From assembly GCF_000234805.1 (NCBI RefSeq), contig NC_016645.1:1960391-2024390 (forward strand): 64,000 nucleotides of DNA, given 5' to 3'. Of this stretch, positions 6,168-18,714 are shown piece after piece. Made by a program: the position numbers and the translations under genes. The DNA is from Pyrobaculum ferrireducens. Lineage in GTDB: Archaea; Thermoproteota; Thermoprotei; Thermoproteales; Thermoproteaceae. How positions within the stretch are numbered: the first letter of the stretch is position 1; every line of letters starts with the position of its first letter. The notes beneath the pieces were generated by a model that worked only from the letters and a program-made list of their open reading frames with translations, was not told where the DNA came from and did no database searches.

Positions 6168-6605
6168 GTGAAGGACTCCTACATCTCCCGCATGGACGAC
6201 AGATTCAGAGAGATAAGGAGAATCCTCACCGAGATACTAGAGGAGGTCAGCGGCTTTAAGTACCGCGCCGCGAGGGAGGTAGAAGAGCTTCTGGAAAAGC
6301 GGGGAGTGCACTGCGGCATATGGCTAGACGTACGGTTGCCGGCCGACGGCCTCGTGAAGATAGACCTCTACTGCCCCCAGCCCCTCGTAGTCGGCAAAGT
6401 CACAGTCTCCCTAATAGACGCAGAGGAGGTAGAAGAAGCCCTCGCACAGCTACGGAAACTAGCCGAAGCCGCCGAGAAGTCCAGGGGAGCCAAAACATAC
6501 CTAGCGGTGCTAGCCGTGGAATTCGCGCCGAGGGACGTCGCCCAGTACCTCAGAAAGAGGGCAGAGGAGGAAGGCATACACCTCATACTGGGGAGGGAAT
6601 ACTAG
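6168..6605 (+). CDS. Short paralogue of the nuclease-like protein, catalytic Glu replaced
   Basis: 145 aa, equal to the C-terminal domain of the gene at 4723-5529, and ending with the same 14 residues (AEEEGIHLILGREY). The long coil is absent, leaving only a short helix (RFREIRRILTEIL). Where the first copy has VDIFC...VVGEVTT, this one has IDLYC...VVGKVTV: the putative catalytic glutamate is lysine. It is therefore probably catalytically dead or acts as a binding subunit. Start GTG 6168 fits an AT box about 25 nt upstream; ATG 6194 is an alternative. Family as for the neighbour. Confidence 0.7.
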   Translation: MKDSYISRMDDRFREIRRILTEILEEVSGFKYRAAREVEELLEKRGVHCGIWLDVRLPADGLVKIDLYCPQPLVVGKVTVSLIDAEEVEEALAQLRKLAEAAEKSRGAKTYLAVLAVEFAPRDVAQYLRKRAEEEGIHLILGREY

Positions 6606-6922
6606 CCAAGCCGCACGTTGGATGTCCAGAATCTCCCTAGGCGGAGATCGCCAAGCCAGCGATTAGCCGTTGTAAAAACGAAACAAGCGCTGGGGATGCA
6701 CTCCAATCCTTATAGACATTTGTATTTTATATAAATTCGGAGGTCCTCACGCCGAGGATTTGTAATAAACAACAAACACGCCGAGACACGGTATCCACAG
6801 CAGAGACAAAGAAAAAGCAAAAGGCTAGGCACGCCACACAACCTGGAGCAACAATCAGCCACTGGGACGGCGCCCTTAACACGGCATCTATATCCACTTT
6901 GCAGTTCGGCGGCTACACCACA
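6606..6922. other. Intergenic region before the pilin gene
   Basis: No supported gene. An AT-rich patch (TTTTATATAAATT, about 6724-6736) looks like a promoter element but no credible frame follows it on either strand. Confidence 0.4.
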
Positions 6923-6932
6923 AAATATATAA
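6923..6932 (+). promoter_or_regulatory. Strong TATA box of the pilin gene
   Basis: AAATATATAA is centred 25 nt before the ATG at 6953. This is the best TATA match in the window and agrees with a highly expressed structural gene. It also shows that the longer frame starting at 6899 is not the real start. Confidence 0.75.
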
Positions 6933-6952: not shown

Positions 6953-7381
6953 ATGCCCACAAAACTAAAGGGTATGACCTCCCTAGAAATAGCGATAATA
7001 GTAGCAATAGTGCTGGTAATTGCGATAGCAGTCGGCTGGTACCTATACACCACATTCGCCGCAGCTGGACAACAAGCATCGCTAACAGTAGTGTCGGCAA
7101 AAATCACAACAACAGAAGATGGAGCTACTCTTACATTGGAAGTTGTGCCACAAGGTGGCGCGTCTGTACAGATAAAAGCAGTTGAGATAGCTGGAACACA
7201 AGTCGACACCAGTAAAATTACCCCAACTCTTATCAGTGGGCCTACTACAGTGATAGTTACATTGGATGACATCAACGTTGCTGTTGGGCAGGTTCTCACT
7301 GGTAGAGTAGTGTTGAGCAACGGCGCAGTTGCTCCATTCAGCGCGTCAGTTGTAGCTGGAGGTGGAGAAGGAGCACCGTAA
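6953..7381 (+). CDS. Type IV pilin-like major subunit candidate
   Basis: 142 aa. The N-terminus MPTKLKG-MTSLEIAIIVAI is a class III (prepilin) signal: basic residues, a glycine cleavage site, a glutamate five residues after the cut, then a 20-residue hydrophobic helix ending GWYLYTTF. The rest is a Thr/Val-rich beta-type domain without cysteines. Cleavage would be by a PibD-like peptidase not in this window. The strong TATA box, T-rich terminator and solitary unit suggest an abundant filament subunit. The phrase WYLYTTF recurs in the small pilin-like gene at 12004, linking the two. Which pilus it forms cannot be told. Confidence 0.8.
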   Translation: MPTKLKGMTSLEIAIIVAIVLVIAIAVGWYLYTTFAAAGQQASLTVVSAKITTTEDGATLTLEVVPQGGASVQIKAVEIAGTQVDTSKITPTLISGPTTVIVTLDDINVAVGQVLTGRVVLSNGAVAPFSASVVAGGGEGAP

Positions 7382-7481: not shown

Positions 7482-8546
7482 GTGTTAAATATGAAGGTCT
7501 TGGTTGATTGGGTAAGGGCGTTGGCGGTGGTGGTTGTTTTTGTTATAACGTCATTGTCTGTTGGCTTCACTTTTGCGGATGAGGTGGTGTATATGAAAGC
7601 TGGCTTGGGACAACTGAGTGGAACGCCCCCGGCTCTTACTTCGAATCCGGAGCATCCGCCTCTTGCAAAATATCTAATAGGTTTGGCGCCTAGGTGGGCG
7701 CCGTTTATTGCTGGTGTCGTAACGGTGTTTTTGACTGGTTGGCTAGGGCGCTTGTTGGGGAGGCCGTTTTGGCTGGTTTCTCTAAGCTTGGCTACCGACA
7801 TAATATTTGCAAGGACTTCCAGCTTCGCCATGCTTGACGTTTTCGTGGCGCTTTTTTCGGTTTCTGCCGTTATTTCATACCTCTTGGGGAGGAGGTGGCT
7901 GTCGGGGGTGCTGTGGGGGGCGGCGCTTGCCTCTAAATTTACTGCGGCCTTTCCCCTAGCCGGGTTTGTTTTCTACGTTTTGCTGAGGGATAGGAAGTCG
8001 CTGGCGCCGATTACTATAGGCGCGGCGGTGGCCTTTCTGGCCGCCCATGCTGTTGACTTGGCCCATGGCTTGTTTCTATACCACCTCCAGTTCTATTGGT
8101 GGCTTGTGTCTTTCCATAGCCATAAGAATCCTCTTACTGGCTGGCTTACCTTCCTTATGGGGGCGCCGTGGTATGTCTACTACACGAAGTTTCTATACAA
8201 CGGCACAGACACTGTAACGGCGCTGTCGAATCCTGGAGTGTATAAAGTATTGGAGTACGAGATCCAAGTGTCGATTGCGCCGTGGCTTGGCCACGTAGCT
8301 TGGCGCGCAGTTCCAGTTGAATTAATTAGGAAACCATCCCTGGGGCTGGATGCTCTGTTGGTTGCGTCGTCTGTGTTAATATCGCAGTCGGGCTGGTTCT
8401 ACTGGTACTTCGCCGCGGTGGCGCCCTTCTTCCACCTCTACACCCGCCGCATCTATGTAGCTATACAGTTGATATTCATCGCCTTGCTGTACCTAGGCAT
8501 GCCCCCCATCTTGACTTGGCCGCTGGGACCCTTTAAGACGGGATAG
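7482..8546 (+). CDS. GT-C fold membrane glycosyltransferase (PMT/GT39-like)
   Basis: 354 aa, about nine hydrophobic segments. The first extracellular loop has the acidic pair DE after helix 1 (FTFADEVVYMKAG) and NPEHPPLAKYLIG, the pattern of dolichyl-phosphate-sugar protein glycosyltransferases. A later ASKFTAAFPL and a loop with MLDVFVALF also fit. It would transfer a lipid-linked sugar to exported proteins on the outer face of the membrane. Placed between pilin genes, it probably glycosylates surface subunits, which contain many N-x-S/T sites; this is inferred. Start GTG 7482 is about 25 nt after ATTTATTTATC. Codon use is more T-rich than in the housekeeping genes. Confidence 0.75.
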   Translation: MLNMKVLVDWVRALAVVVVFVITSLSVGFTFADEVVYMKAGLGQLSGTPPALTSNPEHPPLAKYLIGLAPRWAPFIAGVVTVFLTGWLGRLLGRPFWLVSLSLATDIIFARTSSFAMLDVFVALFSVSAVISYLLGRRWLSGVLWGAALASKFTAAFPLAGFVFYVLLRDRKSLAPITIGAAVAFLAAHAVDLAHGLFLYHLQFYWWLVSFHSHKNPLTGWLTFLMGAPWYVYYTKFLYNGTDTVTALSNPGVYKVLEYEIQVSIAPWLGHVAWRAVPVELIRKPSLGLDALLVASSVLISQSGWFYWYFAAVAPFFHLYTRRIYVAIQLIFIALLYLGMPPILTWPLGPFKTG

Positions 8547-9436: not shown

Positions 9437-12004
9437 ATGAGATATGTATTGCTGGTGTCTCTCCTGGTTGTGCTGGCTTTTGCTTATGTAGTTCCGACGG
9501 AGTCTCTTGACGTGTATTACTGGGCTAAGCCAGATGGGGTGTATGTGGTGGGGCTTGACGGCGCGACGCTTTGGAGCGCTAATGCGGTGTTTCCCCTGGT
9601 GGCGAGCGACTCGGCTGGTAGGTGCTTCGCGGTGGTAAACAGGCCTTATGTATATGACATAGGAGGGGAGGGGCTTAATCTAAGGATCAGCGTGCCTACC
9701 ACTGTGGAGCTTTCTGAGGATCTTCTTGCGACGTTTAGGCAGTACGGCATATCGCTTCCGCCGCGGGTGCCCATTGTTTTAAACATCACGATCCCTCTGC
9801 CGCCTGTCATCATCGCGGCTACGTATAAGACGGCTGTGGCCTCTCTGCATGCTCCGTATGGCTACCCGCTGTGGGCGGTGACGCTGGGGCCCAGGGCCAA
9901 CGCCACGGCGGCGGCCACCGACTGTCAGTACGTGGTGGTGGGCACCATCGGCGGTGAGGTGTATGTGCTTGCCAACGGCCGCGTGGTGGATGTCAAGTCT
10001 CTGGGGGAGCCGGTGACCTCTGCGGCGTGGGGGAGGGCCCCGGGCGTCTTCTACATCGGCACGGCTGGGGGCAGGATCTTCCGCTACTCGCAGGGCTCGC
10101 TGGCGCAGGTCGGCACCTGCAGTGGCCAGGTCTACTCTCTGGCGGCTACGCCGGACGGCTCGGCGGTGGCGGCTTGTTTCAAGAAGGGCGAGAGGCCTGA
10201 GGTGGAGCTGTACCCCTACGGGCTGAGGCTCGCGCCCTCGGTGCTGGCGGAGTATGGGATAGACTCGCCTAGGGTCCCCGCGGCGCTTAGCCAGGACGGC
10301 AGGGTCTTCGCCGTGGGGGTGCAGGACTACGTCGTAGTTTTCGAGGGGGGTAGGGAGTCGTGGAGGGCGAAGGTGCCGTCTCTGCCCCTCGCGGTGGCGG
10401 TTTCGGGCAACGGCTCTGTGGTGGCTGTGGGGACTCTCGGGGGCGACGTTTTGGTGTTTTGGAGGGGGAGGGAGGTGGCGAGGCTTGGGGGGTCCTCGCC
10501 GGTGACTTCTCTGGGGCTTTCGGTGGATGGGAGGGCCCTCGTGGTGGAGAGGTGGACGCAGGCCTCGGCGACGCGGCTGGCCTTTGTCAACATCGCACTT
10601 AAGGTGCCGGGGCAGTGCCTCCCGGCCGACGTGGATGTGAGAGTGGGGGACTCTACATATCTCTACAGGCTCGCCGGTTCGGGGACTGTCTTCATACCGG
10701 TGGGGCGGGTGTCTCTGGCGCCTAGGTATAAGTACATGGGCGACGTGAGGTGTAGGCCTTTGGGCAACGTCACGCTTGACGTGAGGGGGGACGTGGAGGC
10801 GCCGGTGGAGCTGGGCTACGTGCTTGAGTACCGGGTGAGCCTCATGCCCCCCAACATCACTAGGGGGCCCGGCTGGGCTTCTGGCCCCGCCTCTTTCTTT
10901 GCGGAGAGGGTTGTGCAGATACCTGTGGTGGACTCCCCGGTGCAGCAGGGCAGGCTCGTGCTGGTGGGGTGGGAGGTGGATGGCAAGAGGCTCAATCTGT
11001 CTGCTCCCTCGGTTTCGGTAGATGTGTCGAGGCCGACTGAGGTTAAGGCTCTGTATAGGGTGGAGTTGCCGGGCTATGTGCAGGTTAACGCCACGTACAG
11101 GCTTAGGCTTGAGTCTGTGTTTGTCTTCGACAGGTTCGGGACTCCCATCGCCTCTGGCCCCGCGCCGGTGGTTTCCGTATACCCGGTTATTGTGAGGGGG
11201 GTCTACACGCCTCAGGTGCTCGTCTCCACGGTCTTCCCCGCCGTGGTTAACGGCTCGACGTCTCTATGGGCTGATCTGGGTAGCGTTGTTGTTTTCCAGG
11301 GGAGGGACGTTGAGTTTAGAAACGGGACGCGGCTTGCTTTTGTAAAGTGGGTGGAGCTGGACAGCTCTGAAAGGACTGTACAGCTGGTTGCCGACAGGGC
11401 TGTAAGGCTGACGCCTCAGTACGAGGTGCAGTACAGGGTTTGGGCGAAGCTGCCTGCCACCGTTGTGGAACCTGTGAACGCTACCTGGGTGGCTAGGGGC
11501 TCTGCAGTGAAGATAGCGGTTCCCGACGTCTTGAGCCAGCAGGGCAATACGAGGACCGTGGTGGGTCAGTGGGTGATTAACGGCGTCCCCAACGCGACGC
11601 TTAAGGGGAATGTTATCACGCTGAGAGTGACCAAACCGCTTAACGTGACGTATACGGTGAAGCGCCAGTACCTCTTGACGTTTACCACTAGGTACGGTTC
11701 TGTGACGCCAGCTATGTGGGTCGACGAGGGCGGCACAGCCGCGGTGGTTCCAACGCCTATGGATGTGTGGGCCCCGCCTCCGTTGCGTTGGGTATTCGCT
11801 GGGTGGAGAGACACGGCCACCGGGGTGGTGTACAGCTATCCTCAGATGCCGGTTGCGTACGGGCCTGTTACCTACGAGGCGGTCTGGACGCTTGACCTAG
11901 TGCCTATCCTAGCGATCGCCGGTGCGGCGGCCGGCGCTGTGTTTCTGGTCTGGTTCAGGAGGCGTAGGAGGCTGGCTAGGCTCATGGCCGAGGTGCAGGA
12001 GTAA
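9437..12004 (+). CDS. Large membrane-anchored extracellular protein (beta-propeller plus InlB-type repeats)
   Basis: 855 aa. Signal or anchor helix at residues 1-16 (MRYVLLVSLLVVLAFA). Residues about 20-380 show repeated propeller-like blades (SLAATPDGSAVAACF; VVAVGTLGGDVLVF). Residues about 440-820 contain about four modules like divergent InlB B-repeats (RYGSVTPAMWVDEGG, then VFAGW). A single helix near 830 (LAIAGAAAGAVFLVW) and a basic tail anchor it. Many N-x-S/T sites. ATG 9437 is chosen because TAATACATATA lies 26 nt upstream. Its stop overlaps the next start (TAATG), so it heads the pilin-like operon. Likely an adhesin or sheath protein; function inferred. Confidence 0.75.
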   Translation: MRYVLLVSLLVVLAFAYVVPTESLDVYYWAKPDGVYVVGLDGATLWSANAVFPLVASDSAGRCFAVVNRPYVYDIGGEGLNLRISVPTTVELSEDLLATFRQYGISLPPRVPIVLNITIPLPPVIIAATYKTAVASLHAPYGYPLWAVTLGPRANATAAATDCQYVVVGTIGGEVYVLANGRVVDVKSLGEPVTSAAWGRAPGVFYIGTAGGRIFRYSQGSLAQVGTCSGQVYSLAATPDGSAVAACFKKGERPEVELYPYGLRLAPSVLAEYGIDSPRVPAALSQDGRVFAVGVQDYVVVFEGGRESWRAKVPSLPLAVAVSGNGSVVAVGTLGGDVLVFWRGREVARLGGSSPVTSLGLSVDGRALVVERWTQASATRLAFVNIALKVPGQCLPADVDVRVGDSTYLYRLAGSGTVFIPVGRVSLAPRYKYMGDVRCRPLGNVTLDVRGDVEAPVELGYVLEYRVSLMPPNITRGPGWASGPASFFAERVVQIPVVDSPVQQGRLVLVGWEVDGKRLNLSAPSVSVDVSRPTEVKALYRVELPGYVQVNATYRLRLESVFVFDRFGTPIASGPAPVVSVYPVIVRGVYTPQVLVSTVFPAVVNGSTSLWADLGSVVVFQGRDVEFRNGTRLAFVKWVELDSSERTVQLVADRAVRLTPQYEVQYRVWAKLPATVVEPVNATWVARGSAVKIAVPDVLSQQGNTRTVVGQWVINGVPNATLKGNVITLRVTKPLNVTYTVKRQYLLTFTTRYGSVTPAMWVDEGGTAAVVPTPMDVWAPPPLRWVFAGWRDTATGVVYSYPQMPVAYGPVTYEAVWTLDLVPILAIAGAAAGAVFLVWFRRRRRLARLMAEVQE

Positions 12005-12369
12005 TGCTCTCGCTCGGCCATGCTGTGTTGCTCGGGTTTGTTCTCGTTATCGTGCTGGCGGTTGCGTGGTACCTGTATACAACTTTCTCAGCCTCTTCCT
12101 CCGTCGCGGCGGGACAGAGGGGTCTAAAGATCTTACAGGCATGCGTCGGCGGTGGGCGGTTGCTGTTGAGGGTGGAGGCTGTGGCGGGTCAGCCTGTGTA
12201 TGTGGATTCCGTAGAGGTATACGGCATGAAATATCCAGTGGGGAAGGAGGTCTCGGGTGTAGACGAGATTGTTGTGTCTGGGATTGAGGCCTCTACCACG
12301 CCGCTTTACGTGAGGATCTACACTGCGGGTGGCTTTGTGGTGTCTACCTACGCTGGGCGCTGTCCCTGA
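12004..12369 (+). CDS. Pilin-like small membrane protein
   Basis: 121 aa with an N-terminal hydrophobic helix (residues 5-25) ending AWYLYTTFSASS, almost the same as in the pilin at 6953. The exported part is a small beta-type domain with two cysteines (QACVGG and GRCP at the end) that could form a disulfide. No clear prepilin cut site (no basic-Gly before the helix except G5). Its ATG overlaps the stop of the 855-aa protein by one base, showing translational coupling. Probably a minor subunit or partner of that protein. Confidence 0.7.
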   Translation: MLSLGHAVLLGFVLVIVLAVAWYLYTTFSASSSVAAGQRGLKILQACVGGGRLLLRVEAVAGQPVYVDSVEVYGMKYPVGKEVSGVDEIVVSGIEASTTPLYVRIYTAGGFVVSTYAGRCP

Positions 12370-12448
12370 GCCTTATGGCGCATGTTTTTGAAGTGTAGAA
12401 AAGGGGTTACACCATAAAATATAAATTCAAAAGTCCGTTGCTAGTTGT

Positions 12449-14050
12449 ATGCGTGGTTTAGAGTCTTTCGACATGCTTATCGCCTTTACTATAGTGGCCC
12501 TTTTTGTGGTCGGTATCTACTTCATGATGGGGTACTTCCCCTTTGCCACCGGCGCCGCTGAGGTTAAGGCGTCGGTGGGACTCGACGCGCAGGAGGTGTT
12601 AAAGAAAATTATACAGCAACCGGGCTCCCCCGCCGACTGGACGGACATAAACCAGGTGCAGGACCTGGGGCTGGCCGACAGCGGAATACCCGGCCAGCTA
12701 GATCCCAAGAAGTTGCTGGCTCTGGCGTCTCTCTCAGGTGGCGCGGAGGCCGTCTGCCGCATCAGAACATCCAGCCAAGACTACCCAGTCACTAAGGTTG
12801 GCTACGGCATATATCTGTGGGGCACTCCCTCCAGTACGCAACTGGATCCCTCGGTGTATCAGAGGGTTTTGAAGAGTCTATTTGGTAGTGACTGGGATAA
12901 GTACGACATTGAGTTAGTAATTAGGCCTGCTCTTAAGATAAATCTCGACATTCAAGGGGGCCAGACGTTTATCTCTATAACGCCTCCAGGCGTCTACGCG
13001 CTGGATGCTTGTGCCATATTCTGGGCCTCGTCATCCTCAGCGGCGTATAATGTGGAGATTATAGGGGCCTACTACTACTCACAGGGTGGCGGTGAGAATG
13101 CCAAGTGGTACTTCAATATAAGGCTGTACAACTCGGGCACCCAGAGCGTCCAGATAAACAGCATTAAGCTGGGTGGACAGGAGTTACTTACCTCCCCAGT
13201 TACGATAAATCCAGGCGACGTATGGTGCAACACATATCAACTCTCTGGGAAGCCGGCGGATACTACCGTAGCCGTAAGCGGTCCTAATGTATATGTGACT
13301 GCCCAGGCCCAGGGGGTGAAGCCTGTTGGCGGTTGCGCGCCGCCTAACAAGAACACGCCATCTATCGTGCCTCAGCAACAGTGTTTCTCTGGCGGCACTG
13401 ATGCCGATGGGAGGGCGGTTCTTTCAGTACCTGGAAATACCGTGTTTACCTTTGTGAGGGCGAGGGGGGCCGCGGTGAGGGGCGTTAACTACACGTACCC
13501 AGGCTCTGGCCAGGTCTCGCTGGTAGGGCTTGTTGCTAAGCAAGACGCCGGGGTATACATCATACACTCGAAACTTATACAAAACATTGGTAGCACCTCG
13601 CTCTGCGGTTGCGACGACCCCGGAGTCTCGGCTCTCGGCCTCCGCGCCGTCTACGGCTTTCTCGGCGGACAGACGTCTAACTTGTTGCAAGATGTGACGA
13701 TAAACCCATCTGTCAATCTTGATCTGGGCACTGTGTGTGGCAATGGCGTAATGGATAAGGCCGGCTGTCTCATTCCCTGGGGTAGGATAGGGAGGGCTAA
13801 GTTCTTGGTTGTGCTTGTGGAGCGTAACTCTAACGGTGATCCTCCCAAGTGCGGTGAGATTCCGCAGAGGGATGTCATTGTGATGCCCCTCACCGGGGGC
13901 CTACCGCCGCTGTATGAGGTGCGTTTTGCTACTTGGTGGAGGTGGGTTGGGCAGAGGCCTGAGGCGCTGGTTACTTCGTACGCCGAGGCTTTGGCGGACT
14001 CTGGCGAGATTACGTACAAGGTTGAGCTGTGGGTGTTTAGGTACAGATGA
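12449..14050 (+). CDS. Large pilin-like exported protein, 533 aa
   Basis: N-terminus MRGLESFDMLIAFTIVALFV has the basic-Gly-(x)-Glu start and hydrophobic helix of archaeal pilin-like proteins. The remaining 500 residues are an extracellular region rich in Gly, Ser, Thr and Asn with several cysteines (for example CGCDDPG and GTVCGNGVM), probably disulfide-stabilised. It has its own promoter (AAAATATAAATT, about 12415-12426) 25 nt before ATG 12449 and overlaps the next gene by 4 nt (ATGA type). No enzyme motif seen. Possibly a tip or adhesive subunit; role inferred from operon and topology. Confidence 0.7.
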   Translation: MRGLESFDMLIAFTIVALFVVGIYFMMGYFPFATGAAEVKASVGLDAQEVLKKIIQQPGSPADWTDINQVQDLGLADSGIPGQLDPKKLLALASLSGGAEAVCRIRTSSQDYPVTKVGYGIYLWGTPSSTQLDPSVYQRVLKSLFGSDWDKYDIELVIRPALKINLDIQGGQTFISITPPGVYALDACAIFWASSSSAAYNVEIIGAYYYSQGGGENAKWYFNIRLYNSGTQSVQINSIKLGGQELLTSPVTINPGDVWCNTYQLSGKPADTTVAVSGPNVYVTAQAQGVKPVGGCAPPNKNTPSIVPQQQCFSGGTDADGRAVLSVPGNTVFTFVRARGAAVRGVNYTYPGSGQVSLVGLVAKQDAGVYIIHSKLIQNIGSTSLCGCDDPGVSALGLRAVYGFLGGQTSNLLQDVTINPSVNLDLGTVCGNGVMDKAGCLIPWGRIGRAKFLVVLVERNSNGDPPKCGEIPQRDVIVMPLTGGLPPLYEVRFATWWRWVGQRPEALVTSYAEALADSGEITYKVELWVFRYR

Positions 14051-14412
14051 GGTGGGTTGTTGAGCTTGTGTTTGCCTCGGCGTTGCTTGGGCTAGTGTTT
14101 GCGTTGTTTAACTACACATCTCCCCTCTCTATGTCTGTGCAGGTGGGGGAGAGGGGTAGGTTCTCTGAGCTGGCTCTGTTCGCCATGAGGCTCGCCTCTA
14201 GCCCAGACTTCCTTTTTAGGCTTCAGACCGACTGGGGCTCGGCTCTGCTGACTGCGAATGCGGAGGCTGGGTTGATTGACCCGCTTGCGCGTGTAAGCGT
14301 GGTGAGGCCTGTGGGCGGCGTGTGTCCAGTTGTGCCGTCGCCTAGGTTCTCTATTTCTGTGGCTTCTGTTATGCCCAACGGCACGGCTGTATGTATCGCG
14401 GTGTACGCATGA
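14047..14412 (+). CDS. Minor pilin-like protein, 121 aa
   Basis: One N-terminal helix (VVELVFASALLGLVFALF) with a glutamate near its start, then a short exported domain with two cysteines (GGVCPVV, TAVCIAV). It is coupled to both neighbours by 4-nt ATGA overlaps. Its plan, a helix followed by a small globular part, is that of minor pilins or pseudopilins. No sequence family recognised. Confidence 0.65.
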   Translation: MRWVVELVFASALLGLVFALFNYTSPLSMSVQVGERGRFSELALFAMRLASSPDFLFRLQTDWGSALLTANAEAGLIDPLARVSVVRPVGGVCPVVPSPRFSISVASVMPNGTAVCIAVYA

Positions 14413-15608
14413 GGGGCCAGATTATACTCCTAACTGCTGTGTTAGTGGCTGTGGCTGTAGTTGCGGTGCTGGTTCTGCAGTCTATCGCGTCGTCTTCCCC
14501 TGGCTACGGCGGGGTGAGGGCGGCTTACGGCGTTTTCTCCAGAGATGTGTCGAAGGCTGTTGGTGTTTTGTCTTCCTATGTGGATTACATGGGGCTGGCG
14601 TCTCTTGTTAACTTCAGCGCCTCCAGCGCCCGCTATGCCTTCCTGACCTCGGCGCTTCCGTACACCGGCGGCGCCAACGCGTATCTGTACTGGCTCCACA
14701 TGAATAGGACTTTGGCTATGATGAACAGCACGGTGGTGTTTTTTGAGCTGAATAGGGGGGTCCTGGGCCTCTCCGTGAAACAACCGACGATGGTGTATAG
14801 AGGGGGGAGGTCAATTAAGCTGTATACCCCGGGCTACTTCAACCTCACTGTTATGTTGCAACCTGTCCCAAACGGCACGCATCTGACGCAACCCCTCCCC
14901 TCGTGGGTTTCGCTGTCGTTTTACGACAGCGGCGGCATTATGCGTAGCGTGAATAACTTCACTATTGTGTTGGCTAGTAATTTGGCGTCTGCTTTGTATA
15001 GGAGCTCTGTGGTGATGAATGTCTCTCTCCTGGCTCTGGCTGGGCTAAACGTCACTGCGCAGTTTGGGGTATCTATACGCGTCTTGCCGCAGGAGCAGTC
15101 TGGGAGCGTCTGCGGTGATTATATATGTATAAACATCACGACCACCGCCCCATATGGCTGGACGGCCTACATAACCGTGCTCAATAGAACGATTCTTCAG
15201 GGCGACTCCTACTCGATTTATTACAAGCAGGTGGCGGCGTCGTACGGTTTGTACAACTACACCACTTATTCCGCTGTGTATTGGGTAGATCTTTCGGGCA
15301 TGTATGTAGAGCCGCTTCTCAGGGTGACTGTTGGCGATGTGCAGCTCTATTTGTTGCCTTTCGTAACTATTACCTGTCCCCAGTTGTCTCAGAACCAGGA
15401 TTTGAAGAATAGATACAGTTATCCCCTTGTCTACTTCAACATCACCGCGGCGCCTATAGCGCCGGGTATCGGCAAGAATGTAACTAGGATTGACTTCTCC
15501 TTTAGGGACTACAGAGTTACTTACTGGGTTGTTCACCAGGGCGGCGTCTTGTCGATAGGTAGTGGGAATTTGCAGAATCTTAAGTCGCTGTGGCCATGCA
15601 GTCCTTAG
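14409..15608 (+). CDS. Minor pilin-like protein, 399 aa
   Basis: N-terminus MRGQIILLTAVLVAVAVVAV is typical of archaeal pilin-like proteins: Arg-Gly directly before a long hydrophobic helix. The ectodomain has about a dozen N-x-S/T sites (NMTL-type loops, FNITA, LNVTA), fitting heavy glycosylation, and two or more cysteine pairs. ATG 14409 overlaps the previous stop by 4 nt; the upstream in-frame start at 14391 would intrude into the preceding gene and is less likely. No domain recognised. Confidence 0.68.
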   Translation: MRGQIILLTAVLVAVAVVAVLVLQSIASSSPGYGGVRAAYGVFSRDVSKAVGVLSSYVDYMGLASLVNFSASSARYAFLTSALPYTGGANAYLYWLHMNRTLAMMNSTVVFFELNRGVLGLSVKQPTMVYRGGRSIKLYTPGYFNLTVMLQPVPNGTHLTQPLPSWVSLSFYDSGGIMRSVNNFTIVLASNLASALYRSSVVMNVSLLALAGLNVTAQFGVSIRVLPQEQSGSVCGDYICINITTTAPYGWTAYITVLNRTILQGDSYSIYYKQVAASYGLYNYTTYSAVYWVDLSGMYVEPLLRVTVGDVQLYLLPFVTITCPQLSQNQDLKNRYSYPLVYFNITAAPIAPGIGKNVTRIDFSFRDYRVTYWVVHQGGVLSIGSGNLQNLKSLWPCSP

Positions 15609-16201
15609 AGTTGCTTATAATTACCTCGTTTGCGCTGGTTGCTATATTTGCCGTTGTGCCGGTTATACTTCAGCAGATATACTACTACCAAGCTCTTGTG
15701 GAGATGCGTAGTGCCTCTGCGTTTTTTAACTTGGTGGCAGACTCTCTGGAGAGCGACATGGGGGCCGCGTTCGCGCAGAGGGTTATTAATCTGCCTAGTC
15801 TGCGCTTTGGCTCGTTGAAGTACAGCGTGGCGCAGATGGGCATGTGCGGCGGCGCGGCGGTTTTCAACACTACGTTTGTATACGAGTCGCAGTACTTGTC
15901 TGTGGCTGGTATGTTGCGGGGTGTGAACTGGGGCAAGGTGGTATACGCGCCTGACACTCCTATTGCAGTGCGGGGTTGGGGGACCTCTTTGTCTATGGCG
16001 CCCCGGGTTGTTAAATATGGCGACATCGCGGTGGTGCTAAATATTACGTACACAGCGGCTCAGAGGGCTTCAGGCGTCGCCTTATATTACAACATCACGG
16101 CTCCGGTGGCTTACAACGCTGGTGACTGCGCCCTTGACGGTGTAGATCTAAGTGGCGTGTCGAAGGTGTTGGTAGTTCCGGTTAGGCTGGAGTTGCGATG
16201 A
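15590..16201 (+). CDS. Minor pilin-like protein, about 203 aa
   Basis: Short leader (GTG 15590, or more likely ATG 15596, giving MQSLELLIITSF), then a hydrophobic helix with a glutamate near its start and a coil (YYYQALVEMRSASAFF) continuing it, as in pilin alpha-1 helices. The ectodomain has two cysteines and several N-x-T sites. It overlaps the preceding gene by about 13-19 nt and the next by 4 nt. Family not recognised. Confidence 0.65.
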   Translation: MAMQSLELLIITSFALVAIFAVVPVILQQIYYYQALVEMRSASAFFNLVADSLESDMGAAFAQRVINLPSLRFGSLKYSVAQMGMCGGAAVFNTTFVYESQYLSVAGMLRGVNWGKVVYAPDTPIAVRGWGTSLSMAPRVVKYGDIAVVLNITYTAAQRASGVALYYNITAPVAYNAGDCALDGVDLSGVSKVLVVPVRLELR

Positions 16202-16707
16202 ATGCTTTACAGACGGCGGTCTCTATGGCCTTCGCCGGCTTGCTCTCAGTACTGATTGCCTATATCGTAAACGTGCAGGCGCAGATGGCGTTTGATCAAG
16301 AGACCGCGTCTATGGCTCAGGCCTTGGCTGATTCCGTGGCTAACCAGATAAGGGCTGGCATCTCCTCTATCACTTTGCCAAATGTTTATCGTTTTAACAT
16401 GTCTATAGCGTTGCCTAGCTTCTCGCCTCCTTTCGACTCCTTCTTCTACTCAATAAAGTTGGTGAATGAAAATGACATCCTCGTTGTATACGTAAATATG
16501 ACCGCGTATAGAGGCTCTGGAATGTCTAGTACATCTGTATATAAGGCGGTTTATAACATTACAAACATCAAGATCTATGCCCAGGGCACTACGCCGTTGG
16601 CCACATGTAGTCAAGGCGATTTGGTAGATCTATCTCAGCGGGGTTGTTACGTCATGTGGCAGATGCCGGCTCCCACTTACGTGAAGTATCTAGTTTTTAC
16701 AAAATAG
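16198..16707 (+). CDS. Minor pilin-like protein, 169 aa; last gene of the operon
   Basis: N-terminal helix (TAVSMAFAGLLSVLIAYIV) continued by an amphipathic segment (QMAFDQETASMAQALADSV), followed by a small domain with two cysteines (ATCSQGD, RGCYVMW). The arrangement resembles archaellum stator-type or minor pilin proteins, without clear similarity. Coupled to the preceding gene by ATGA. No terminator hairpin, but CCTTTTTC (about 16745-16752) follows. Confidence 0.65.
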   Translation: MNALQTAVSMAFAGLLSVLIAYIVNVQAQMAFDQETASMAQALADSVANQIRAGISSITLPNVYRFNMSIALPSFSPPFDSFFYSIKLVNENDILVVYVNMTAYRGSGMSSTSVYKAVYNITNIKIYAQGTTPLATCSQGDLVDLSQRGCYVMWQMPAPTYVKYLVFTK

Positions 16708-16824: not shown

Positions 16825-17169
16825 CTATTTTGTCTTTACTAGTTCTATAAGGAGCTTCTGTATGTCAAGAAGAATAGTTTGTAGAGAGTCTATTCTCTTA
16901 CTTAGCAAGTCTGCGACGGCATCTATCCTTTTGTTCATTTCGTCGATTCTCCTATTTGTCTCGTCTATTCTTCTATTTGTTTCGTCGAGTCTCTGCTCTA
17001 GTCTGGCTATTTCGGTCCGCAATTCGCCCATTTCTCTCAATATGGATCCTAGGTAGAGGAGGAAGATGTCCTCTGTGGTGAGCTTTTTGCCCTCCTTAAG
17101 CTTACCAACGACGTGCTCTACTGCGGTCTTAAGCGCATCGTAGACAAAGGCGCCGAGCTCGCCCGACAT
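16825..17169 (-). CDS. Small heptad-repeat coiled-coil protein
   Basis: 114 aa. Residues about 50-90 are consecutive 7-residue units (RLDETNR, RIDETNR, RIDEMNK, RIDAVAD), a classic trimeric or dimeric coil. The DNA repeats with a 21-nt period near 16935-16990. No signal peptide or nuclease domain is attached. The box AGATTTATAAAC (complement of about 17187-17198) lies upstream of ATG 17169 at the usual spacing. Short coiled-coil proteins of this sort are common in Pyrobaculum; function unknown. Confidence 0.7.
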   Translation of the reverse strand: MSGELGAFVYDALKTAVEHVVGKLKEGKKLTTEDIFLLYLGSILREMGELRTEIARLEQRLDETNRRIDETNRRIDEMNKRIDAVADLLSKRIDSLQTILLDIQKLLIELVKTK

Positions 17170-17292
17170 AGTATCTTCCTTCCATCAGTTTATAAATCTA
17201 GTGACGAGCTACATTACAGACACCGGACATATATTGGATGTCGCGCGAATTCCGGGGCGGGTGTTCCTATTTATAAAGTGTTTTGTTGTGTT

Positions 17293-18714
17293 GTGGTTGT
17301 GGAGGAGCTGGAGAGGCCTCTGCGCTTTATTAGGATGGCGAGCGGCGTGCATGTAGTGGCTCTGATGACAGAGCCGTTTCCGTGTCCGGGCCGGTGTACC
17401 TTCTGCCCGTCGGCGGAGGGGGTTCCCAAGTCCTACATGCCCGACAGCCCGGTGGTTCTCCGTGCCAAGAGGAGCCGATACGATCCCTATCTGCAGACCG
17501 CTGGCCGTATCAAAGTGTATCTTATGAACGGCCACCTCCCGTCGAAGATCGAGGCTGTGGTGATGGGGGGCACCTTCGGCGCCTTGCCGCGGTGGTACCG
17601 GGAGTGGTTTGTGGCTAACGTCTTCAAGGCGCTGAACGACTACCCCAACTGGGCGGGCTCGGCGGATCCGGCGCCGGATTTGGAGGCCGAGCAGCTTAGG
17701 AACGAGTCGGCGGCTATGCGCCTCGTCGCGATCACGGTGGAGACGCGGCCCGACTTCGTGGACGCGGGAGAGGTGGACTTCCTACTGAGGCTGGGAGTGA
17801 CTAGGGTTGAGCTGGGCGTCCAGTCTATATACGACGACGTACTTGCGAGGGTTGGGAGGGGCCACGGCGCCGCCGAGGTGGTTAGGGCGACGGCTCTTTT
17901 GAAGGATTCGGCTTACAAGGTCTGCTACCACCTGATGCCGGGCCTGCCGGGGAGCGATCCAGACCGCGACTTGGAGATGGTGAGGGAGGTGTTTTCAAAC
18001 CCGGACTTCATGCCGGACTGCGTCAAGATATACCCCACGTACGTGGTGCCGGGGACTGCGTTGTACGAGGAGTGGCGCCGCGGGGCGTACCGAAGCTACG
18101 ACGAGGAGACTTGGCTTGACCTCCTGGCGAGGATATACGCGGCGGTGCCCAGATGGGCCAGGGTCATGCGCCTCGGCCGCGACATCCCTCTGCACCACGT
18201 TGTGGACGGCCCCAGGTGGGGGAACATGAGGCAGGTGGTGCTCCGGCATATGGAGAGGCTTGGGCTGAGGTGTGTGGAGATCCGCTGTAGGGAGGCCGGC
18301 GTGAAGCTGGCCAACGGCCTGCCGATTCAGCCCGGCCCGGTGGAGGTTAGGCGCGTCGAGTACGTGGCGTCGGGGGGCGTGGAGGTTTTTCTAGAGGCGG
18401 TGGGGCCCGACGACACTCTCTACGGGATTCTGCGGCTGAGGATCCCCCACGGCCCCCACAGGCCCGAGCTCCGGGGGGCGGCCTTGGTTAGAGAGCTCCA
18501 CGTCTACGGCCCCGAGGTGCCCGTCGGCGCGGAGGGGGGCTGGTGGCAGCACAGAGGTATAGGCAGGTCTTTGATGGAGAGGGCGGAGGAGATCGCCGCG
18601 GAGTTCGCGAAGAGGGTGGCTGTGATCAGCGGCGTCGGCGCGAGGCCCTACTTCCGCAAGCTGGGGTACGAGAGGTGCGGTCCATATATGTGTAAAGAGC
18701 TCTCAGCCTCGTAG
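17293..18714 (+). CDS. elp3: Elp3-like tRNA U34 modification enzyme (radical SAM + acetyltransferase)
   Basis: Elp3 adds a carboxymethyl-type group to uridine 34 of tRNA. The N-terminal radical-SAM domain has the cluster motif CPGRCTFCP (Cx3Cx2C; many Elp3 proteins have a longer first gap) and the conserved RAKRSRYDPYLQ. The C-terminal GNAT domain carries the acetyl-CoA motif QHRGIGRSLM. Start GTG 17293 (or 17299) follows TATTTATAAAG by the leaderless distance; the longer frame from 17113 overlaps a divergent gene and is unlikely. The 3' end overlaps the convergent ATPase by 12 nt. A Trm9-like methyltransferase, the enzyme that would act next, lies 1 kb away. Confidence 0.93.
   Translation: MVVEELERPLRFIRMASGVHVVALMTEPFPCPGRCTFCPSAEGVPKSYMPDSPVVLRAKRSRYDPYLQTAGRIKVYLMNGHLPSKIEAVVMGGTFGALPRWYREWFVANVFKALNDYPNWAGSADPAPDLEAEQLRNESAAMRLVAITVETRPDFVDAGEVDFLLRLGVTRVELGVQSIYDDVLARVGRGHGAAEVVRATALLKDSAYKVCYHLMPGLPGSDPDRDLEMVREVFSNPDFMPDCVKIYPTYVVPGTALYEEWRRGAYRSYDEETWLDLLARIYAAVPRWARVMRLGRDIPLHHVVDGPRWGNMRQVVLRHMERLGLRCVEIRCREAGVKLANGLPIQPGPVEVRRVEYVASGGVEVFLEAVGPDDTLYGILRLRIPHGPHRPELRGAALVRELHVYGPEVPVGAEGGWWQHRGIGRSLMERAEEIAAEFAKRVAVISGVGARPYFRKLGYERCGPYMCKELSAS

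Follow-up and report, generated by a model that had tools for sequence, protein, structure and literature searches.

The window analyzed here is a stretch of 64,000 nucleotides that covers positions 1,960,391-2,024,390 of the 2.47-Mb single-contig genome of Pyrobaculum ferrireducens. The genes and promoter elements of interest, in window coordinates, are the following:

6914..6929, + strand: BRE/TATA-like promoter element TACACCACAAAATATA before the major pilin gene, matched with 0 mismatches
6956..7381, + strand: PilA, major pilin with leader MPTKLKG followed by mature MTSLEIAII...; phmmer match to 6w8u_A
7482..8546, + strand: GT, polytopic membrane protein, 78% identical in the relative G009
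9437..12004, + strand: PROP, propeller ectoprotein, as judged from an AF2 model, WD40 structure matches and PDB profile hits
12004..12369, + strand: B, small PilA-related leaderless pilin starting MLSLGHAV...; PilA-profile match, E=2.9e-14
12408..12423, + strand: second copy of the promoter element, TACACCATAAAATATA, before C in the B-C gap, matched with 0 mismatches
12449..14050, + strand: C, large cysteine-rich minor pilin with an MRG leader and an acidic residue at +5, from the 14-member alignment A7
14047..14412, + strand: D, small pilin-like protein with an MRW..EL start, from conserved order and N-terminus
14409..15608, + strand: E, pilin-like protein rich in glycosylation sites, with an MRG/Q leader and a hydrophobic +5, as in 16 of 16 orthologs
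15596..16201, + strand: F, leaderless minor pilin starting MQSLE, with an AF2 model; alternative GTG start at 15590
16198..16707, + strand: G, leaderless minor pilin starting MNALQ, from the reading of its upstream frame

PROP and B to G are seven successive ORFs on the same strand which, as originally predicted, vary widely in size (855, 121, 533, 121, 399-405, 201-203 and 169 aa). Each of the seven has a hydrophobic N-terminal segment and an even number of cysteines (6, 2, 10, 2, 4, 2 and 2, from PROP to G), in line with the cysteine pairs noted earlier. The abundance of N-x-S/T sites that had been ascribed to many of these proteins holds for E (13) and PROP (12); D, F and G have 2-3 each, C has one and B none. 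For E, the start at 14409, which yields the conserved MRG, is more likely than the one at 14391. The chain of ATGA or TAATG overlaps said to join the genes is interrupted between B and C, which are separated by 79 bp. Because this gap also holds a promoter-like element, the genes probably form two transcription units, PROP-B and C-D-E-F-G. The only 0-mismatch matches to the element in the window are those before PilA and before C, and 3 matches are found at ≤3 mismatches compared to 0.22 expected; in most orthologs of C, too, the gene is preceded by a related element in the corresponding place.

Every one of the seven genes has orthologs in other genomes, and dN/dS is low for C, D, F and G; orthology and dN/dS together rule out that the small ORFs arose by chance. 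The five-gene block C-D-E-F-G (12449-16707) is conserved throughout the Thermoproteaceae, and its order is kept in two genera, contrary to the possibility raised with the original prediction that no relative would conserve it. C is single-copy in the P. ferrireducens genome, and B, among the loci that we read, was found elsewhere only in G009. One contig labelled Calditenuaceae (WUQR01000121.1) carries a C-D-E-F-G cassette resembling one Pyrobaculum type (L031), which is probably a binning error or a recent transfer. Directly past G, on the opposite strand (16825-17169), lies a gene for a coiled-coil protein that is present also in the G009, G001 and G005 loci. An Elp3-like radical SAM gene (17113-18714 in the window; loci L038-L040, L043 and L046) adjoins PROP in two genera and, in Thermoproteus, runs convergently into the 3' end of PROP.

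The presence of a major pilin upstream was confirmed. PilA matches the P. arsenaticum pilin (PDB 6w8u_A; phmmer E=1e-36) in an alignment that starts at mature residue 1, a methionine, and, by this match, is the ortholog of that pilin, which was solved by cryo-EM. It combines membership in the PilA family with a short basic-Gly leader, both of which characterize type IV pilus subunits. Cleavage after Gly7 has been reported for P. arsenaticum, as has the use of Pyrobaculum pili as receptors by viruses (PMC7347861). The adjacent GT had been called a sugar transferase solely from its PMT-like sequence appearance; Pfam gives no match at E≤1 and NCBIfam no credible one, and GT is possibly a GT-C/PMT-like enzyme. 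In two Pyrobaculum genomes, G001 and G005, the GT gene appears to be in pieces (L031:6865-7858 and L036:7522-8089), as if decaying.

The prediction of a large propeller protein also stands. Structure predictions, made for PROP and F as single chains, gave for PROP a model with a mean pLDDT of 79.9 and VIA-align Z scores of up to 23.9 against WD40 propellers; profile searches also yielded PDB hits. PROP is predicted to consist of a signal/anchor helix, a 7-bladed WD40-type propeller (approximately aa 50-385), a beta-rich stalk (approximately aa 386-815), and a C-terminal TM segment with a basic tail; the model suggests that this C-terminal helix anchors the protein in the membrane. The PilY1 family is defined by a C-terminal propeller in a soluble protein, an arrangement that PROP does not share, and no PilC/PilY1 Pfam match was found at E≤1.

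For F, the model (AF2, pLDDT 86.8) shows a helix of 52 residues (3-54) followed by a beta domain. Together with an invariant Glu5, this predicted fold of a long N-terminal helix and a beta-rich globular domain is that of a type IV pilin. A comparison of the beta domain with the PDB yielded no significant Foldseek match and a best VIA Z of 2.1, with no known pilin among the structures listed, an outcome that rules nothing out. The lack of a PDB match counts against the pilus reading. Pfam and NCBIfam gave no credible matches for B, C, D, F and G; a weak N-terminal Pfam hit of E to DUF7261 was not used. A scan of viral_contigs for relatives of F found none and hence gave no sign of viral carriage.

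At least five of the proteins had been predicted to start with short basic-Gly leaders, which does not hold. Such a leader precedes the hydrophobic helix in PilA (MPTKLKG), C and E (both MRG), and D starts with MRW. B, F and G begin with a methionine at mature residue 1: following the frame upstream of each start to the nearest in-frame stop, we found that stop 2-36 codons away. B has no upstream in-frame start codon, and in the orthologs of B, F and G the stretch between the stop and the methionine is usually free of start codons. The Pyrobaculum F proteins start with M[TQ]SLE; in 9 of the 11 tabulated orthologs there is no start codon between the stop and the methionine, and in the remaining two the sole alternative is a GTG two codons earlier. 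G is MNALQ or MRSLE in seven Pyrobaculum genomes, two of them with a GTG far upstream. Relatives also encode a small pilin, PilA2, which is leaderless in six genomes; in one of these there is a GTG far upstream. Misannotation of the starts is accordingly ruled out for most orthologs, which have no alternative start codon before the in-frame stop.

Orthologs in other genera keep or lose the leader in either direction, with position 5 staying in register. In Thermoproteus, F is RG/LEALE, mostly with MRG, and G is mostly MRG/I[ST]A[LI]E; two Pyrobaculum G proteins also have RG. C shows the inverse pattern: it is leaderless, (GTG)Q[SA][IV]E, in five Thermoproteus, whereas in most Pyrobaculum it reads RG/LES[x][DE] or similar. 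The +5 residues were tabulated manually from the N-terminal sequences: every F, C and PilA sequence in the table has E or D at this position, and G and PilA2 are mixed. In protein E, the residue is L, V or F in all 16 sequences and never acidic. In bacteria, one minor pilin, usually the largest, has a hydrophobic +5 residue and has been proposed to be the first subunit of the filament (PMC5207764). E reaches 1.1-1.24 kaa in other lineages; in the window, unlike in type II cassettes and in Thermoproteus, C is longer than E, which counts against the pilus reading.

The original prediction also held that no assembly machinery is present. Whole-genome searches indeed placed every T2SSE, T2SSF and A24 peptidase match outside the window; the wording is misleading, however, given that an ATPase/TadC-like pair is encoded approximately 91 kb away. 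Across the genome, there are five matches to T2SSE-type ATPases and two to T2SSF. One of the ATPases, ATP895, adjoins the gene for a 507-aa membrane protein, TadC507, at approximately 1.877-1.882 Mb. TadC507 has no Pfam match, and its membrane segments and position before the ATPase suggest a TadC-like platform. In three Thermoproteus loci (L073, L074 and L077), the genes that come right after C-D-E-F-G encode TadC507 and a VirB11-type ATPase; both genes lie beside PROP in G007 and G017, and in G018 the ATPase alone does so on the stretch read. The combination of a VirB11-type ATPase and a TadC-like platform that marks archaeal type IV pili is thus present and, in Thermoproteus, G007 and G017, linked. 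With the machinery beside the cassette or PROP in other lineages and the pair located at approximately 91 kb in P. ferrireducens, the puzzle of a missing machinery dissolves.

Co-occurrence was observed as well: of the 81 genomes in the class, 19 encode TadC507 and exactly these 19, which comprise all 19 genomes of the family, encode full-length PROP. Because this distribution is limited to one family, it could stem from shared ancestry alone; adjacency is not confounded in this way. Of the 19 genomes, 17 contain a strong match to F. Weak F matches come from a second family of the order; there, proteins resembling C and F are encoded near other large TM-anchored proteins. An A24 prepilin peptidase candidate of 197 aa is encoded elsewhere in the genome (E=2.3e-5; 25.9 bits, just below the Pfam cut-off of 26.5), and a search for Arc_PepC_II gave no match. 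A further locus (L010:5365-6937), with genes for an ATPase, a 4-TM protein and a TFIIB-like protein, resembles the unusual 4D system in the account of Makarova et al.

The ATPase gene itself appears altered in P. ferrireducens. At L009:7021-9705 (G000:C1:1879021-1881705), the pilus ATPase ORF is in frame with an N-terminally shortened TgtA, resulting in a single 894-aa ORF. Compared to G009, 1,020 bp are absent, namely the last ~33 ATPase codons, a small ORF, the gene for a ~170-aa membrane protein and the first ~66 tgtA codons; ATPase and tgtA are separate genes in G001, G002, G005, G006 and G009, and both small genes are present in relatives. The gap reflects either a genuine loss of sequence or a mistake in the assembly. 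The fused TgtA is the only TgtA over the cut-off in the P. ferrireducens genome. The ATPase truncation may have altered the pilus machine of this organism, which counts against the pilus reading.

Comparison of close relatives showed that parts of the locus have been replaced as blocks, with dS close to 1 or saturated inside and approximately 0.1 in the nearby flanks. Between the window and G009, dS is 0.91-1.25 for PilA, GT and PROP, compared to 0.06 in an upstream gene (6168-6605) and 0.08-0.15 in C, D, F, G and ELP3, with intermediate values for B and CC114 (0.26-0.30) and E (0.37); similarity at the DNA level restarts within the PROP gene, at 11626. In the pair G003/G004, the replaced block is C to G. 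These genomes are 94% identical at the DNA level across L033 8974-12563; C to G lack a DNA-level match, the proteins being 25-34% identical with dS of 1.1-3.1; and identity is back to 91% at 16918, just past G, with dS of 0.10-0.13 downstream. A gene further upstream has a dS of 0.64, so the background there is uneven. Both cases are accounted for by ordinary homologous replacement; a role of viruses as drivers of the exchange is a guess prompted by the reported use of pili as receptors.

A set of minor pilins, or else an adhesin-bearing surface appendage, remains the best-supported reading of this locus, shorn of the missing machinery that the original prediction implied. Specifically, we consider it quite likely that the secreted components of a Thermoproteaceae type IV pilus are encoded here, with a PilA shaft, C to G as minor or tip subunits and PROP as an ectoprotein, built by the TadC/VirB11-type pair encoded approximately 91 kb away. 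Under this model, PilA would be the shaft subunit. C, D, E, F and G would be pilin-like subunits of low copy number, probably responsible for nucleating the filament and making up its tip, where E would be outermost and act as the adhesin. PROP, a propeller-plus-stalk protein with a C-terminal helix as its presumed membrane anchor, would probably reside at the base or at the S-layer; that PROP and the C-G cassette are far apart in Thermoproteus counts against a joint role in the pilus. Processing by the prepilin peptidase would be required for PilA, C and E. B, F and G, like PilA2 of the relatives, would be made leaderless, with the initiator methionine placed where cleavage would leave the mature N-terminus.

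An unlikely alternative is that the cassette forms a short secretion pseudopilus, akin to type II secretion, that exports proteins across the S-layer. The anatomy of the cassette matches that of the GspH-I-J-K minor pseudopilins, down to the single subunit with a hydrophobic +5 residue, and an ATPase with a TadC-like platform is common to type IV pili and type II secretion systems. However, the adjacent major pilin is orthologous to that of a genuine long pilus, no family of secreted substrates is linked to the locus, and block exchange along with a length-variable E rich in glycosylation sites better fits a surface-exposed binding tip. It appears still less probable that the cassette belongs with a different pilus system encoded in the genome, with a 4B- or 4G-like ATPase, and not with TadC507/ATP895. 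The genome does encode several VirB11-type ATPases, including 4B- and 4G-like ones that are potential alternative partners and so count against the proposed pairing, and the gene of the partner ATPase is altered; nevertheless, the cassette or PROP adjoins TadC507/ATP895 orthologs in three lineages, and TadC507 and PROP have the identical distribution in 19 of 19 genomes. Equally improbable is that C-G and PROP are S-layer or other TM-anchored surface glycoproteins with a pilin likeness limited to the N-terminal helices: the C-terminal TM anchor of PROP, as in the S-layer-like proteins described by Makarova et al. (PMC4858521), the glycosylation sites of E and PROP and the lack of a PDB match for the F domain would fit, but the register of position 5, the RG leaders in orthologs, the synteny with TadC and the ATPase, and the conserved five-gene order do not.

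On the preferred pilus reading, a broader and more tentative proposition can be made, which as a whole we regard as plausible but somewhat doubtful: some archaeal minor pilins would be peptidase-independent, the initiator methionine being mature residue 1 and the protein ready for assembly as made; the leader would have been lost or kept independently; and the tip cassette would be swapped whole, perhaps under pressure from viruses. Peptidase cleavage is regarded as the hallmark step by which a prepilin becomes competent for assembly. If the proposition is true, minor subunits can be inserted and assembled without a leader, and leaderless subunits escape class III signal-peptide finders, so that archaeal pilin counts may be too low. 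A narrowly worded search of the open-access literature found no report of pilins without a leader, which does not imply that there is none.

The system is of a known type, and we do not regard the finding as categorically new. Type IV pilus systems of this sort, including separate ATPase loci, were predicted in Thermoproteales by Makarova et al. (2016), who likely listed these genes (PMC4858521). As described there, subclade 4E is delineated by an ATPase within clade 4E and the minor pilin arCOG05475. By described gene content only, the present locus resembles subclades 4E/4G, which occur in Pyrobaculum and Thermoproteus. In these subclades, ATPase and TadC are sometimes encoded apart and the locus can include a major pilin of the PilA family; further shared features are a number of predicted minor pilins or adhesins, a protein with a C-terminal TM segment, and conserved cysteines. 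Main-text passages of that paper on these systems make no reference to a propeller, to minor pilins without a leader, to a pattern at position 5 or to an exchange of blocks; relative to those passages, the leaderless minor pilins, the hydrophobic +5 of E, which is the GspK-type tip signature, and the block exchange are new. The P. arsenaticum type IV pilus (6w8u; Wang et al. 2020, PMC7347861) shares with the present system the orthologous PilA, with the same mature N-terminus MTSLE; that study addressed the shaft and left the minor pilins untreated. It also labelled the Met8 starts of PilA orthologs as misannotations, whereas most F, G and PilA2 orthologs analyzed here have no upstream start codon. 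Like the cassette, the GspH-I-J-K minor pseudopilins comprise several Glu5 subunits and one, usually the largest, with a hydrophobic +5 (PMC5207764); in the present case, however, there are five subunits, E is not the largest in the window, and homology is not evident from sequence. The PilY1/minor pilin priming and tip complexes of M. xanthus (PMC7541494) likewise combine a propeller with several clustered minor pilins, and their alternative versions have been proposed to give different tips. PROP differs from PilY1 in its N-terminal propeller, its C-terminal TM anchor and its lack of a PilC/PilY1 Pfam match. Furthermore, the M. xanthus versions are kept as paralogs, whereas here they are exchanged at one locus, which offers a natural test of the linkage between tip identity, adhesion and virus entry.
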